A model generated the notes under the pieces. The model was given only the letters and a program-made list of their open reading frames with translations, did no database searches and had not been told where the DNA came from. The position numbers and the translations under genes are program-made. From NCBI RefSeq assembly GCF_003336425.1, contig NZ_QEIO01000001.1, positions 1 through 64,000 of the forward strand: a stretch of 64,000 nt of DNA, read 5' to 3'. Origin of the DNA: Marinitenerispora sediminis. Lineage in GTDB: Bacteria > Actinomycetota > Actinomycetes > Streptosporangiales > Streptosporangiaceae. The stretch's first letter is position 1. Every line of letters begins with the position of its first letter. This document shows, piece after piece, positions 3,886-24,277 of the stretch.

Positions 3886-4658
3886 GACCTTCCCCGCACG
3901 TAGTCGTACAGCGCCGCGAGGTAGCCGCTGTGGTCCCGCCAGCGCTCCAGCGCCGCCGGCAGATCCTCGGGGAGCACGGTGACCGGCCGCGTCGCGTACG
4001 CCCGCCGCGCGCCGCTGAAGGACCGCGGGACGTCGCTGAGGACGGTGCGTTCCCCCCTCCGCCCGGACGGCACGTGGTCGCCCTCGTACACGAATTCCAC
4101 GCTCACCGTCTCGCCCGCACTCCCGTCCCGCTGACCGGGCAGCGGTGGCGGTAGCGGGACCTTCCGCAGCTCCGCGACGGGATCCGCCACCCTTCGGCCC
4201 AGGACGAGCGGCTGGTCCGGTACGCAGGCGCGGCGCCCGAGGTAGGGCTGCCAGTGCGGGGCGAGGAGCGCGGCCGCGATCGGCTCCGCGACCTCCTCGG
4301 GCGCGGTGACGGCGACCGTGAACACCGCGCCCGCGAGGTAGGCGCGGTGGGTGACGATCGTGCCCGCCTCGGCACCCCTCCGCTTGCCCTCCGCGGTGGG
4401 GACGGTGCGGCTGGCCGGCATTCCCCCGCCGACCGTGTGGAAGTCGACCGTCCGGGTTCCGGGCCGGTCGATCCGCACGGTGATCCCCAGGGTGTCGTAG
4501 TGGCTGAGGTCGGCGCCGCGCTCGACGCCCTGCGCCGCCGCGAACATCCCGACCAGTCCGGATCTCGTGGGGAAGATGACGGTGTCCCGCAGCCCGTAGG
4601 CGCTGTGCTCGCCCCAGCTCTGCAGCGGGCCGGCGAGGCGGAGCAGGAATCCGCTCAT
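3882..4658 (-). CDS. cas5e: Cascade subunit Cas5e (CasD)
   Basis: 258 aa. Cas5e caps the 5' handle of the crRNA in Cascade. The N-terminal MSGFLLRLAGPLQSWG and the following FPTRSGLVGMFAAAQG are the typical Cas5 RAMP beginning and Gly-rich segment. The ATG overlaps the cas7 stop by ATGA and the end overlaps cas6e, so it is embedded in the Cascade operon. Confidence 0.96.
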   Translation of the reverse strand: MSGFLLRLAGPLQSWGEHSAYGLRDTVIFPTRSGLVGMFAAAQGVERGADLSHYDTLGITVRIDRPGTRTVDFHTVGGGMPASRTVPTAEGKRRGAEAGTIVTHRAYLAGAVFTVAVTAPEEVAEPIAAALLAPHWQPYLGRRACVPDQPLVLGRRVADPVAELRKVPLPPPLPGQRDGSAGETVSVEFVYEGDHVPSGRRGERTVLSDVPRSFSGARRAYATRPVTVLPEDLPAALERWRDHSGYLAALYDYVRGRS

Positions 4659-11180: not shown

Positions 11181-12728
11181 CTGAGCCCCACGCACGTGGG
11201 GGTGGACCGTTTCCTACGGTGAGTCGCATGCCCGCGAGTCTCTGAGCCCCACGCACGTGGGGGTGGACCGGAGGCGCGCACCCGGCCCGACAGATCGGCC
11301 GCCCTGAGCCCCACGCACGTGGGGGTGGACCGCCGGGCTCCGACGACGACCCGTTGTTCGCCGCCTGAGCCCCACGCACGTGGGGGTGGACCGGCTCTGC
11401 GGTCGCCGAGGTACTCCTTGAGGTCCTGAGCCCCACGCACGTGGGGTGGACCGGCGAGGGGGTGACCGTGGCAGACGACGAGGAGCTGAGCCCCACGCAC
11501 GTGGGGGTGGACCGGGCCCCGCGGCTGCCACCGCGAGGCCCCGATACTGAGCCCCACGCACGTGGGGGTGGACCGCGGTCGGTGATCGAGATGCGGCTCG
11601 ACTCGATCTGAGCCCCACGCACGTGGGGGTGGACCGTGTCACAGCCGGCGTCACGCCGGCGTCACGGACTGAGCCCCACGCACGTGGGGGTGGACCGTCA
11701 TCGGCCGAGGGCGGACGCGCGGCAGCGGCCTGAGCCCCACGCACGTGGGGGTGGACCGGGCCCACCGGCGTCGAGCGGTTCCCCAACGAGCTGAGCCCCA
11801 CGCACGTGGGGGTGGACCGGTCACCGACGCCGGCCGCGTCGACACGGTCGCCTGAGCCCCACGCACGTGGGGGTGGACCGTCCCCCGACTTCCGCGAAGC
11901 CGCGGGGACCACCTGAGCCCCACGCACGTGGGGGTGGACCGTAGCGGTGGAACATCAGCCCGTCGCTGCCCTCCTGAGCCCCACGCACGTGGGGGTGGAC
12001 CGTTCGGATTCGACACGTACAAGACGCAGAACATCTGAGCCCCACGCACGTGGGGGTGGACCGTCGCGCCGGAAGATCGACGCCGCGATGGCCGCCTGAG
12101 CCCCACGCACGTGGGGGTGGACCGCTCGCGCGACTGCGACGGCTCACCGCCCGCCACTGAGCCCCACGCACGTGGGGGTGGACCGGTGATGATCTGAGCG
12201 TGCATTGGTTCCTTCCTCTGAGCCCCACGCACGTGGGGGTGGACCGGCGGCATCGCTCCGGCGGTCGCGCACCAGGCACTGAGCCCCACGCACGTGGGGG
12301 TGGACCGTCGTGCGCCGCTGGCCGGACGTCATCGCCATCCTGAGCCCCACGCACGTGGGGGTGGACCGCGCGCACCAGCTCGGGCAGGTTCGCCATGGCC
12401 CTGAGCCCCACGCACGTGGGGGTGGACCGGAGCTGTTCGTGTCCCCGTCGGCCCGGCTGCGCTGAGCCCCACGCACGTGGGGGTGGACCGGAGCTGTTCT
12501 CGTGCGCCGCTGGCCGGACGTCATCGCCATCCTGAGCCCCACGCACGTGGGGGTGGACCGGAGATCCAGAACGCGGCGTCCATCATCGCCCCCTGAGCCC
12601 CACGCACGTGGGGGTGGACCGCGGACCGGGCGCTGGCCGAGGTCGAAGCGTGTCTGACCCCCACGCACGTGGGGATGGACCTGCGTGAGCTGTCCAGACG
12701 GATGACGTCGTCTTGTGAGCCCCACGCC
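11181..12728 (+). CRISPR. CRISPR array 2, type I-E, 25 repeats plus a terminal stub
   Basis: Repeats start at 11181, 11242, 11304 and then every 61 bp with few exceptions, to 12654; a stub with TGAGCCCCACG lies at about 12715. The repeat starts CTGAG, then shares the hairpin core and GGTGGACCG end with array 1. The copy at 11426 has lost one G (28 nt). The copy at 12654 is degenerate, marking the distal end. Most spacers are 32 nt; one is 33 (11271-11303) and one is 41 (12491-12531). Transcription is rightward, away from cas3. Confidence 0.97.
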
Positions 12729-19732: not shown

Positions 19733-20047
19733 ATGGAAGCACAGCCGGGGCGCGATGCCGACCTGGAGCGACTGCTCGGCGGCGCGGCGGCGGTCTCGTC
19801 CGACGAGCGCGCCGAGTCGGACTACGAGACGCTGCGCGACCTGCTGCGCGAGGCGATCGGCCTGTGCGCCCGCCTCGCCCGCGCGGCCGAGGCGGCCGGG
19901 GACACCCGCCGCGCGGAAGAGCTGGGGCGGCGGCGCCGGTCGTTCGCCGACGTGCTTCGTGACGTACGGCTTGACGACACCGCCCGCGTCCGCCGGTCGA
20001 CCGAGGAGGTCCTGCGCTTCATCCGCGACGCGGAAGCCCGGGCGTAG
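19733..20047 (+). CDS. Small helical protein coupled to zeta-like toxin (possible antitoxin)
   Basis: 104 aa, charged and largely helical (ETLRDLLREAIGLCARLARAAEAAG, RRRRSFADVLRDVRLDD). A TAGGGT -10-like box ends about six bases before the ATG, suggesting a leaderless transcript. The stop shares one base with the GTG of the zeta-like gene. Position and coupling suggest an antitoxin for it. It is longer than classical epsilon and I do not recognise the family. Confidence 0.6.
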   Translation: MEAQPGRDADLERLLGGAAAVSSDERAESDYETLRDLLREAIGLCARLARAAEAAGDTRRAEELGRRRRSFADVLRDVRLDDTARVRRSTEEVLRFIRDAEARA

Positions 20048-21216
20048 TGGACGCGACGCCCGGCCCGTACACGCTCCCCGAGGAGGAGAACGCGCGGATC
20101 TTCCGGGACGAGATCGTCCCGGACCACCTGGCCGGCCGGCCGCGCCAGCGCGTCCCCATCCTCGTCATCATCCTCGTCATCATCCTCGTCATCGTGGGCG
20201 GCGCCACCGGAGCGGGGAAGACCCAGGTCGCCGACGCCATCACCAGCACACTGAACCGGCGCGGCGGGGTCCTCCACATCACCATGGACGACCTCAACCC
20301 GCACCATCCGGACTACTACTCGCTGCGGCGCGACGATCCCGGCAACGCGAGCGCGCACCCGTGGCCGGACGGCCTGCGCTGGTGGCGGCAGGCACAGGAG
20401 TACGCGGCGGCCCGGGGGCGCGACGTCATCATCGAATCGGCCATGCGGACCCCGGCCGAGTTCGAGGACATCGTCGGCCACTTCAGCCCGCGCGGCAACG
20501 AGACCCACCTCGTCCTCATGGGCGTTCCGGAGGCGGTCAGCAGGCAGGGCGCCCTGGGCAGGTTCCTCGACCAGTACGAACGCCTGGGGCACGGCCGTCA
20601 TGTGCCACCGGAGGTCCACGACGAGTGCTACGCGGGGGTCGCCCGCGCCGCCCTGGCCGTCGAGGACCGCCGGGTAACGGTCGACCACCTCTTCATCCTG
20701 CGGCGCAGCGCCGAGGGCGTCCACCCCAGCCGGCTGCACGACGATGGGACCGGTCCGAGCGCCGCGCTGGCCGCCGAACGCTCCCGCCCCTGGACGGAAG
20801 GACGAGACGCTCCGGTTCCAGACCCGTCAGGCGGCCCTGCGGACGAAGGCGCGCGGCCTCCCGGAACGGCTGCGGAGCTGGACGAGATCGACGGCCTGGC
20901 GCGGCCGTACCTGCACCGGCCGGGCGGGCACCGCCGTACCGGCCCGGCCGCCCACCCCCGCCTTCGGTCTGGCGCAGGCCGCCCGGCGGCCGACCAAGGC
21001 CCGTCCCCCCCCGCCGGAAAGGGCGCGGAACGGCCCCCGGGCCCGGCGTCCGATCCCCCGCAGCACCGCCTCGGCCCGCAGCAGCGCCGAACCGGAAGGA
21101 AACCACCCGTTGCCCAGCACGCGCGACCTGCCGTTCCTGGCCGAACTCACCGTAGTACGGCACGGCGAGAGCCTGGCCAACGCCGCCTTCGCCGAGGCGG
21201 AGGCGCACGGCCATGA
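20047..21216 (+). CDS. Zeta-toxin-family P-loop kinase, C-terminus disturbed
   Basis: The recognisable zeta part is about residues 1-290 of a 389-aa frame. Walker A is GGATGAGKTQ (51-60), followed by HITMDDLNPHHPDY and VIIESAMRTPAEFEDI, as in UDP-GlcNAc-kinase toxins. Oddities: the strand before the P-loop is stretched by a 12-bp tandem repeat (LVII repeated). Near 20808 and 20875 the family-like text jumps to the +1 frame and back (DETLRFQTRQAALRTKARGL, then AELDEIDGLARPYL), as if by compensating indels. The tail after about 20930 is featureless and overlaps the next gene. Confidence 0.7.
   Translation: MDATPGPYTLPEEENARIFRDEIVPDHLAGRPRQRVPILVIILVIILVIVGGATGAGKTQVADAITSTLNRRGGVLHITMDDLNPHHPDYYSLRRDDPGNASAHPWPDGLRWWRQAQEYAAARGRDVIIESAMRTPAEFEDIVGHFSPRGNETHLVLMGVPEAVSRQGALGRFLDQYERLGHGRHVPPEVHDECYAGVARAALAVEDRRVTVDHLFILRRSAEGVHPSRLHDDGTGPSAALAAERSRPWTEGRDAPVPDPSGGPADEGARPPGTAAELDEIDGLARPYLHRPGGHRRTGPAAHPRLRSGAGRPAADQGPSPPAGKGAERPPGPASDPPQHRLGPQQRRTGRKPPVAQHARPAVPGRTHRSTARREPGQRRLRRGGGARP
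20161..20196 (+). repeat. 12-bp in-frame tandem repeat in zeta-like gene
   Basis: CTCGTCATCATC occurs at 20161-20172 and 20173-20184, followed by a 9/12 copy to 20196. It encodes LVIILVIILVIV just before the P-loop, where relatives have one hydrophobic strand. Being a multiple of three, gain or loss of units keeps the frame. Confidence 0.85.
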
Positions 21217-21854: not shown

Positions 21855-22294
21855 CTACGCCAGGTGATAACGCACCGAGGCGCGGATCGCTTCGGCGTGC
21901 TGGTGGATGCCGTCCAGATTCGATGAGGTAGCGGGTCTCGTTCTTGTCCGCGTCGAATTCTTGTCCGCGTCGAAAAGGCCGGGGTACGTCCTCGACTTGC
22001 CGTTGAAGCGCAGCCGCGCGATGGTCCTGCGGTTGCTGCCGTCGAGGAGGATGGCGACGTCCGACTCAGCGGGGAACGGGCCGACCACCAGCGCCCGGGC
22101 GGTGTCCATGCTCGCTCCGCCGACCGCGATGCGCAGCCACGAGACGTAGGCCGGCCCATCCGGGTGCTCCTCGGCCCAGCCCTGCGGGCGCTCGCGGAGC
22201 CCGCGAGGATCCGCCGCCGAAGCCGGAGCGGCCAGCGGACGCCCTTCGGTCGGCCCTCCACGCCGGGATCTCCCAGCGCGGCGGTCACCACCAC
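21855..22294 (-). pseudogene. Decayed gene with 17-bp tandem duplication
   Basis: Minus-strand remnant. Readable pieces in different frames are AYVSWLRIAVGG, VAILLDGSNRRTIARLRFNGK, GLFDADKN and LDGIHQHAEAIRASVRYHLA. A perfect 17-bp duplication (21941-21957 and 21958-21974) breaks the frame after FDADKN; collapsing it reads on as ETRYLIES. A second indel restores the last 20 residues. The pieces resemble the tail of a restriction/DNA-processing protein, but I cannot name the family. Confidence 0.6.
21941..21974. repeat. 17-bp perfect tandem duplication
   Basis: TTCTTGTCCGCGTCGAA is repeated back to back. Its length is not a multiple of three, so it frameshifts the minus-strand gene remnant. 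It looks like one replication-slippage event. Confidence 0.95.
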
Positions 22295-22462
22295 CGCGTG
22301 ACCGGTCTCCGCGGCGCGTTCGCGCAGGCCCCGCCGGCGCTCCGGCAGCCGATGCCCATGCTCAGGCGGCGTACCGCTGCTCCCGTCCCCTGGAGCAATG
22401 GACGGCGGCTTCCTGTTCCTGAGCCGCCTGCCGTTCCGCCGATCGTGGCACCCTTTGTTGCG

Positions 22463-22493
22463 TTATGGCGGTGCGCAGTATGCTGTCCGGCTT
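22463..22493 (+). promoter_or_regulatory. Putative promoter of a leaderless transcript
   Basis: TATGCT at 22479-22484 is a good -10. A weak TTG-containing -35 lies near 22458-22465. The expected start point (about 22491) is just before the GTG at 22494, so the message would be nearly leaderless, common in actinomycetes. Inferred from sequence only. Confidence 0.45.
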
Positions 22494-24263
22494 GTGACGG
22501 ACAAGGTGACAGGCCCCGGGCCGGCGGGCGACGGCGTGCTCGCCGTCCAGCCGGGATGGCGAACGGCTCGGACCTCGCTTCGGGTGCTGGTCGTCATCCA
22601 CAGCGTCACCGCGGCCACCCGCATCGCCGACGTGCTCCCGGCCTTCCATGACCAGAGGGTCCAGCTCTTCTGCGTCCAGACCACCAATGCCGTGTTCTCC
22701 GCCGGTGTCGAGGAATATCTGGGCGCGCGGGGATTCCGCAGCCTGACGTGGAAACAGGCGACAGAAATGGATTTCGACATCGCTGTCGCGGCGAGTCTCG
22801 GCGACAATCTCCACGAATTGAATTCCCCGGTCCTGCGCCTCCCGCACGGAAACGGATACAATAAACGCTGGGAACAGGGAACAGGGAACAGGGAACAGGG
22901 AACAGGGAACAGGGAACAGGGAACAGGGAACAGGGAACAGGGAACAGGGGCCTTCGGGCTCTCCGACAGCACGCTCAAACACGACGGCCGCGTGGTTCCG
23001 GCGGCGATCGCGCTCTCGCACCCCGAGCAGCTCGACCGGCTCGCCGAGGGCTGTCCCGACGCCCTCCCCCGCGCGTTCGTCGCGGGTGATCCCTGCTACG
23101 ACCGCGTTCTCGCGAGCCTCCCCCGCCGGCTGCACTACCGGAGCGCCTTCCGTCTGCGTCCCGGGCAGCGGCTCATCACCGTCAGTTCGACGTGGAAGGC
23201 GGACTCCCTCTTCGGGCTCGACCCGACGCTGGTACCCCGGCTGCTCGCACAGCTCCCGCATGACGAGTTCCGGGTCGCCCTGGTGCTGCACCCCAACGTC
23301 TGGGCCTCCCACAGCCGGCTCCAGATCGAGTCGTGGCTCTCCGACGCGCTGCGGGCCGGCCTGATCCTGCTGCCGCCGGACGAGGGCTGGCGGGCCGCCG
23401 TCGTCGCCGCCGACTGGGTCGTCTCCGACCACGGGTCCGTCAGCATGTACGCCGCCGCCGCGGGCCGGCCGGTGCTCCTGGAGAAGGGCGCCCGCTCCTC
23501 GCTCGATCCCCGGTCCGGCCTCAGCAGGTTGTTCGACGCCGCCGCCACGCTGGAGCCGTTCGCCGCCATCCTCCCGCAGCTGCGGCGGGCCGAGGAGCTG
23601 CGTGAGCGCACGCAGGCGGTCGCCGCCTCCTGGGTCAGCTCCGCGCCGGGCCGCTCGCTGCGCCTGATCCGGGCGGAGTCCTACCGCATCATGGGCGCCC
23701 CGCCGCCTGAGACCGAGCCGGTGCTGCTCGCGGTCCCCGCCCCGCGGATCGACGACGCGCCGCCGACCTCGCTGTGGACCTACGTCGAACCGGTCGCCGG
23801 GGGCGGACCCGGCGAGTTCGCCGTACGCCGGACCCCGGCCGCCGTCGCAGGCGCGCTCCCGGCCCCGCCGTCCCCCCACGCGGGAGTGCTCGTGGTCTCC
23901 GACGAGGAGCTCGACCACCGGCTGGCCGGGCTGGCCGACATCATGCGCGTCCCCGTCACAGCGCTGCCCGCCGACGAGGAGAGCTGGTCGGCGGCGGTCT
24001 TCGAGCACCGCCTCGGGGTCCAGCTCACCGTCGTGCACGACACCGCGAGCGCCCGGATCCGCTCCCGCGACGGCCGGACGGCGTCGCTCCTCCTCGACCC
24101 GGTCGCACACCCCGCCGACGCGGAGCTGGTGTTCTCCGTCCTCGCTGAGCGGATCCTCACCGCCAAGGACGCGCTGGACGACATCGCGGCGTTGACTCCC
24201 CTGCTGCTCCGCCTGTCGCCGGAGCGCACGGTCGCGGCCCGGTTCCGCGCCACCGTCCGCTGA
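22494..24263 (+). CDS. Glycosyltransferase-like protein with in-gene heptanucleotide repeat
   Basis: 589 aa from the GTG at 22494; an ATG at 22398 is the alternative. TSLRVLVVIHSVTAATR opens a Rossmann-like domain. RLITVSSTWKADSLFGLDP, LVLHPNVWASHS and WVVSDHGSVSMYAAAAGRPVLL are typical of the second domain of GT-B / CDP-glycerol-transferase-like proteins. Between them, (GGAACAG)11 encodes a Gly/Thr/Asn/Arg/Glu/Gln repeat. Because the unit is 7 bp, only changes by three units keep the frame. The donor and acceptor are unknown. It is convergent with the STAND gene. Confidence 0.7.
   Translation: MTDKVTGPGPAGDGVLAVQPGWRTARTSLRVLVVIHSVTAATRIADVLPAFHDQRVQLFCVQTTNAVFSAGVEEYLGARGFRSLTWKQATEMDFDIAVAASLGDNLHELNSPVLRLPHGNGYNKRWEQGTGNREQGTGNREQGTGNREQGTGAFGLSDSTLKHDGRVVPAAIALSHPEQLDRLAEGCPDALPRAFVAGDPCYDRVLASLPRRLHYRSAFRLRPGQRLITVSSTWKADSLFGLDPTLVPRLLAQLPHDEFRVALVLHPNVWASHSRLQIESWLSDALRAGLILLPPDEGWRAAVVAADWVVSDHGSVSMYAAAAGRPVLLEKGARSSLDPRSGLSRLFDAAATLEPFAAILPQLRRAEELRERTQAVAASWVSSAPGRSLRLIRAESYRIMGAPPPETEPVLLAVPAPRIDDAPPTSLWTYVEPVAGGGPGEFAVRRTPAAVAGALPAPPSPHAGVLVVSDEELDHRLAGLADIMRVPVTALPADEESWSAAVFEHRLGVQLTVVHDTASARIRSRDGRTASLLLDPVAHPADAELVFSVLAERILTAKDALDDIAALTPLLLRLSPERTVAARFRATVR
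22871..22947 (+). repeat. Heptanucleotide microsatellite (GGAACAG)11
   Basis: Eleven perfect back-to-back copies of GGAACAG fill exactly 77 bp, in frame within the glycosyltransferase-like gene. The translated period is 21 bp (7 residues). On the other strand it reads as SLFPVPC repeats, which create spurious open frames. Confidence 0.99.
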
Positions 24264-24277
24264 CACCGATCACCGGG

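Follow-up and report, generated by a model that had tools for sequence, protein, structure and literature searches.

The question raised by this locus is whether a heptanucleotide array in the coding sequence of a glycosyltransferase-like gene of Marinitenerispora sediminis works as an on/off switch. The array lies in the window, i.e., the first 64,000 nucleotides of contig NZ_QEIO01000001.1, and an earlier note made from the letters alone had described it as (GGAACAG)11 at positions 22871 to 22947, in frame inside the gene. Both points hold, since TRF calls a perfect 80-bp run at 22870 to 22949 (period 7, 11.4 copies, 100% matches), which is the identical array in another register, and the ORF from 22398 to 24263 reads through it. 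We consider it very probable that the tract turns the gene on and off, which would make this a phase-variable (contingency) locus. In the mechanism we propose, slippage in the 7-bp array would add or remove units and, 7 not being a multiple of 3, two of the three copy-number classes would shift the frame right after the HGxGYNK motif, cutting the TagF-like product short of its second Rossmann domain (OFF), and the third class would leave the gene ON.

The enzyme gene and its array in the window

The ORF is open from an ATG at 22398 (621 aa), and GTG 22494 is most likely the real start according to the start context conserved in eight orthologues (Table 1): the window gene and these orthologues feature a TAtgcT-like hexamer, about 9 nt, and GTG (ATG in one case), and their first codons are alike as well; a ribosome-binding site is not evident. 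Of the leaderless promoter proposed earlier, a near-leaderless arrangement of conserved -10-like hexamer, short spacing, and start codon stands, and a clear -35 was not seen; the sequence supports a transcript predicted to be leaderless or nearly so. A long reverse-strand ORF across the tract (22362 to 24266) was judged spurious.

Table 1. Features of the enzyme locus (positions counted from the first nucleotide of the window)
Feature	Positions	Strand	Basis
TagF-like GT-B-type enzyme gene, 589 aa from GTG, ON	22494..24263	+	Conserved start context, fold, motifs
-10-like TATGCT, 9 nt before GTG 22494	22479..22484	+	Eight orthologues with the same arrangement
HGNGYNK codons, conserved motif immediately 5' of the tract	22845..22865	+	Alignment of homologues
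(GGGAACA)11.4 tandem array, proposed switch	22870..22949	+	TRF; homologues with other units at the same site
Convergent partner, NB-ARC/TPR (STAND-type) ATPase, 813 aa	24278..26719	-	Pfam NB-ARC above cut-off

The GGGAACA repeat is stop-free in all forward frames. Counting from ATG 22398, arrays of 8, 11, 14, or 17 units keep the protein full-length, and the product shrinks from 621 aa to 232 aa with 12 units and to 326 aa with 13, which bears out the expectation that a gain of one or two units truncates the protein and a gain of three restores it. The window allele is ON, and the locus carries a non-triplet tandem repeat within a gene, as SSR contingency loci do. In the same genome, GGGAACA also occurs as an intergenic array of 4.1 copies on contig C407 (L012, 6788 to 6816), which places such arrays outside genes as well and is counted against the switch reading; beyond these two, no array of the GGGAACA pattern, the one searched for, was detected in the genome with up to 2 mismatches.

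The AlphaFold model of the protein (mean pLDDT 86.6) is of low confidence at residues 1 to 46, which mostly precede the true start, and at residues 161 to 176, which correspond to the array; the latter is modeled as a disordered loop, so its length should be tolerated when the frame is kept. The earlier placement of the tract cleanly between two domains has to be abandoned: the loop sits in the N-terminal Rossmann domain, right after the HG motif, and in the model the second Rossmann domain begins about 80 residues past the array. The glycosyltransferase-like class, on the other hand, was right in outline. The predicted model has a GT-B-type fold, and TagF, the nearest solved structure, is ranked first by Foldseek (3l7j, E 1.9e-10, TM by target 0.56, ~11% identity), with UDP-GlcNAc 2-epimerases and TarL close behind and the epimerases scoring nearly as well. 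No Pfam, NCBIfam, or PADLOC family was found for the window enzyme, nor did a sequence-profile search of the PDB return a match. In relatives, PF04464 (TagF/TarL) reaches 14.9 and 17.6 bits, below the gathering score of 22.1, and the protein is therefore named TagF-like and not a family member. The HG, HP, and GDHGS regions are invariant or nearly so in homologues; the former two, which we take to correspond to the essential histidines of TagF, are also shared with TagF/TarL, as is the GT-B-type fold, and a teichoic-acid-polymerase-like function is predicted from the model. Unlike TagF/TarL, for which no phase variation is known, the window enzyme has an extra C-terminal domain, besides the low identity and sub-cut-off score given above.

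Arrays at one site across the Actinomycetes

When the window protein was searched against sixty related genomes, the best matches featured non-triplet arrays at the same place, namely, GGGAGCC x11, CCGGGAG x20.6, GAAACCG x10, AATCCAC x10.7, GGAAACC x13.6, and GGAAAAG x7.3, and in one of them (G006) the two gene halves lie in different frames. A one-genome-per-species scan then gave a best-match list of 80 loci from Streptomyces, Nocardiopsis, Actinomadura, Nonomuraea, Lentzea, Amycolatopsis, Saccharopolyspora, Frankia, Nocardia, and other genera, and the survey as a whole was drawn from the relatives and from two even samples, one of Streptomyces and one of the class. In homologues across the Actinomycetes, a tandem repeat occupies the same codons, directly after the HGxGYNK motif, whose H, G, and G are invariant in 49 aligned homologues. 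The period of the internal array is 7 bp in 71 genes and 8 bp in 7 genes, with one short 6-bp run as the sole exception; the arrays are spelled with 38 different units, and the peptides that they encode vary between lineages. A forward stop codon is absent from every unit found, and 16% of shuffled units would contain one.

The comparison of homologues at this site, as suggested in the earlier note, came out in favor of its reading: in most of the clade the site is taken up by a 7- or 8-bp array, and no fixed non-repeat loop was found. Chance as the origin of these arrays is excluded, since the 80 loci hold 54 of them (48 of period 7 and 6 of period 8) in 6.2 kb of site sequence and only 15 tracts in ~0.88 Mb of flanking DNA, counting any period from 1 to 30 with at least 3 copies and at least 21 bp; several of these outside tracts are start-proximal arrays that belong to further members of the family. 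About half of the Streptomyces species in the even draw (38 of 81) contain a family match of E 1e-60 or lower. The array had been called unusual in actinomycetes, which is true of what the searchable literature describes but not of the feature itself, common as it is to many genera.

The family tree, obtained without the array by a quick search on 127 rows, places the window gene in a fully supported group of 11, every member of which has an array, and requires at least 37 unit changes and at least 6 switches between periods 7 and 8 over the family. Another set of genes has no internal array and instead a 7/8-bp array beside the start (13 of period 7 and 3 of period 8), mostly between a promoter-like sequence and the start codon and in a few cases right after a possible start; the one relative retrieved from IMG/VR also has a start-proximal array. 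In one locus (L027), the frame that reads through the array stops at a TGA that overlaps the gene's ATG, an arrangement that would allow translational coupling. We suggest that a 7/8-bp array would have been kept at one of two places, the HG-motif loop or beside the start, while its unit sequence turned over.

Among individual loci, L188 to L195 and L156, all from Streptomyces, have a 7-bp array, often GCCGCGA, between promoter-like sequence and start and none internally. Two adjoining family genes are found in L054, with an 8-bp array x13 (ON) and a 7-bp array x9.1 (OFF), and in L065, where one gene has an array and the other does not.

In-frame and out-of-frame alleles

The list of 80 loci is biased to in-frame genes, and the even draw of 81 Streptomyces species was added for this reason. 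Split matches in this draw broke at query residues 120 to 143, that is, at the array, and reading at the DNA level showed 10 internal arrays ON and 5 of the 15 OFF, the OFF arrays having 6.4 to 18 copies. Over all distinct genes parsed, those with an internal 7/8-bp array are in frame in 61 cases and out of frame in 17 (17/78), versus 76 and 2 (2/78) for genes without one (Fisher p 3e-4, the genes being not fully independent), and one of these two broken genes, L112, holds a remnant of 2.86 copies. Arrays of fewer than 6 copies are ON in 23 cases and OFF in 2 in the whole set, those of 6 copies or more ON in 38 and OFF in 15. This contrast between short and long arrays is expected if short ones rarely slip, and tracts of fewer than 6 copies may be stable relics.

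Closely related strains differ in the same way. Streptomyces anthocyanicus NBC_01668 and NBC_01372, strains originating in the Netherlands and Denmark, have plasmids that align around the gene over 1944 bases at 99.95% identity. A single internal gap interrupts this alignment, and its 56 bp equal eight GCCGGGA units exactly: the array has 17.57 copies in NBC_01668, where it is OFF and the annotated CDS starts past it, and 9.57 copies in NBC_01372, where it is ON within a 1770-bp CDS. In a plasmid pair of S. coelicoflavus, 95% identical, one array is made of GCCGGGA and the other is a perfect GCCGGAA array, a base change spread through the whole array, which is the mark expected of turnover by slippage. 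Copy number is thus not fixed among relatives, near-identical strains being 8 units apart and OFF alleles common; together with the arrays at the same site, this speaks for the phase-variation reading put forward earlier, with ON and OFF states and varying copy number seen in the relatives of a window organism represented by one genome. Complete plasmid records include both states, and OFF alleles are annotated as short or missing proteins (L132 versus L133).

Three other explanations have to be weighed against a switch. The repeats might be a flexible linker selected for its length or for a heptapeptide, frame changes being rare accidents, as the disordered loop and the variable loop of 18 to 96 bp in tract-less homologues would allow. 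However, the encoded peptides are unlike between lineages, only periods 7 and 8 occur where a linker would favor 3, 6, or 9, one third of the even sample is OFF, and the S. anthocyanicus pair differs in state, so we deem a linker highly improbable. Much the same holds for a DNA or RNA control element (a regulator site or a G-quadruplex) or a ribosomal recoding site with OFF alleles still productive, a proposal that we regard as very unlikely. GGGAACA arrays do fit the G3-N4 pattern of G-quadruplexes, and AfsR-type regulators, to which the partner described below is distantly similar, act with heptamer boxes in promoters (PMC5930380), but the array lies within the gene, far from the promoter, its 38 kinds of unit are not conserved, and so many spellings make a shared slippery sequence impossible; a G-quadruplex role was rejected, as most units are without GGG.

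Assembly artefact or decay, meaning neutral expansion in unneeded accessory genes, sequencing errors, or pseudogenes, appears extremely unlikely. In some draft assemblies the array is broken or contains N gaps (L098; L140, L151, and L154; L162), and a Streptomyces locus, L181, has unrelated sequence that looks IS-like by eye directly before the array (~3935 to 4265, reverse strand), this copy having no N-terminal half at the locus. Against this stand the same codon position in many genera, the near absence of broken frames in genes without an internal tract, the stop-free units, the complete plasmid records in both states, and the rest of the OFF genes, which stays alignable. Frame switching through repeat-length change is well supported across the family by these sequence comparisons, from which we infer slippage as its cause, its reversibility, and switching in M. 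sediminis; the actinobacterial mismatch repair enzyme NucS leaves indels uncorrected (PMC8228993).

The convergent partner and possible roles

The gene convergent to the enzyme gene encodes a protein with an NB-ARC domain (26.1 bits versus a cut-off of 23.5), with TPR above cut-off in several homologues, in keeping with a STAND NTPase. Its nearest NCBIfam models, AfsR and HaaT, score 105 to 117 bits versus cut-offs of 1430 and 1125, so it is not assigned to either equivalog, and PADLOC defence-system models matched neither enzyme nor partner. Clustering of neighbouring ORFs found an NB-ARC/TPR-related protein in 84 of 88 loci, a single-linkage cluster that takes in other NB-ARC proteins; the convergent count is safer. 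Among 54 array-bearing genes with sufficient sequence downstream, the partner is convergent and no more than 1.5 kb away in 47, and no more than 120 bp away in 40; it lies within 1.5 kb in 30 of 33 genes without any array. The 3' ends of the two genes often overlap, and the transcripts therefore probably overlap as well. Both S. anthocyanicus plasmids are without the partner beside the gene, which is thus not strictly required. A frameshifted C-terminal domain considered for the 460-bp gap between short-class enzyme and partner was rejected, the best matches lying inside the short gene.

Apart from the partner, the clustering of neighbouring ORFs revealed no conserved neighbours, and family genes are found on plasmids and as multiple copies within a genome, a pattern suggestive of an accessory or conflict-type module. 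Most likely the family would serve either to switch the display of an altered cell-envelope polymer on and off or in an anti-phage or conflict function. More tentatively, and with somewhat less than even confidence, we propose an undescribed two-gene conflict or defence module of multicellular actinomycetes in which a TagF-like enzyme is paired with a convergent NB-ARC/TPR sensor and the 7/8-bp array, at one of two alternative fixed positions and rebuilt with new units, keeps the enzyme phase-variable. STAND NTPase conflict systems of multicellular bacteria (PMC7159879, PMC8195603) likewise link an NB-ARC/TPR protein to one with a glycosyltransferase fold, in multicellular actinomycetes and on plasmids too. 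The present family differs in that its two genes are separate and convergent, the enzyme is TagF-like and not GT4, and the enzyme gene contains the array; when both papers were searched by term, no description of this pair was found.

As in the SSR contingency loci of Haemophilus, Neisseria, and others, which target surface-polymer enzymes and adhesins, among others, non-triplet repeats of changing length would alter gene expression here, and heptanucleotide repeats control neuO of Escherichia coli K1 and HMW1A of Haemophilus influenzae. Unlike those loci, the family belongs to soil actinomycetes, involves one enzyme family over many genera, and has its repeat at a conserved site within the gene or next to the start, the unit itself not being conserved. 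In the papers searched, the repeat-based switching known in Streptomyces is that of phage growth limitation (Pgl) in Streptomyces coelicolor, reversibly turned on and off through a G tract in pglX (PMC4365076). The array proposed here would likewise be a reversible short-repeat switch, found in Streptomyces genes too, yet the Pgl tract is a homopolymer within the methyltransferase gene of a single defence system, and the sequences are unrelated. No description of the family was found in the open-access literature searched. The whole enzyme family looks built around hypermutable arrays and would offer a natural test of why 7/8-bp units are favored, of array rebirth with new spellings at one codon position, and of the benefit that random on/off states bring to multicellular bacteria in soil; genome annotation misreads its OFF alleles.

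Other repeats were observed in the window. Upstream of the enzyme gene, a Zeta-toxin-like kinase domain (20047 to 20700; Pfam PF06414, E 1e-37) contains a perfect 12-bp array, CATCCTCGTCAT x3.1, at 20157 to 20193, and a perfect direct duplication of 17 bp, TTCTTGTCCGCGTCGAA, lies at 21941 to 21974. At 10 to 20 kb from the tract there are two CRISPR-like arrays with a period of ~61 bp (407 to 1839 and 11181 to 12681), whose repeats, GGTCCACCCCCACGTGCGTGGGGCGCAC and CTGAGCCCCACGCACGTGGGGGTGGACC, are near mirror images.
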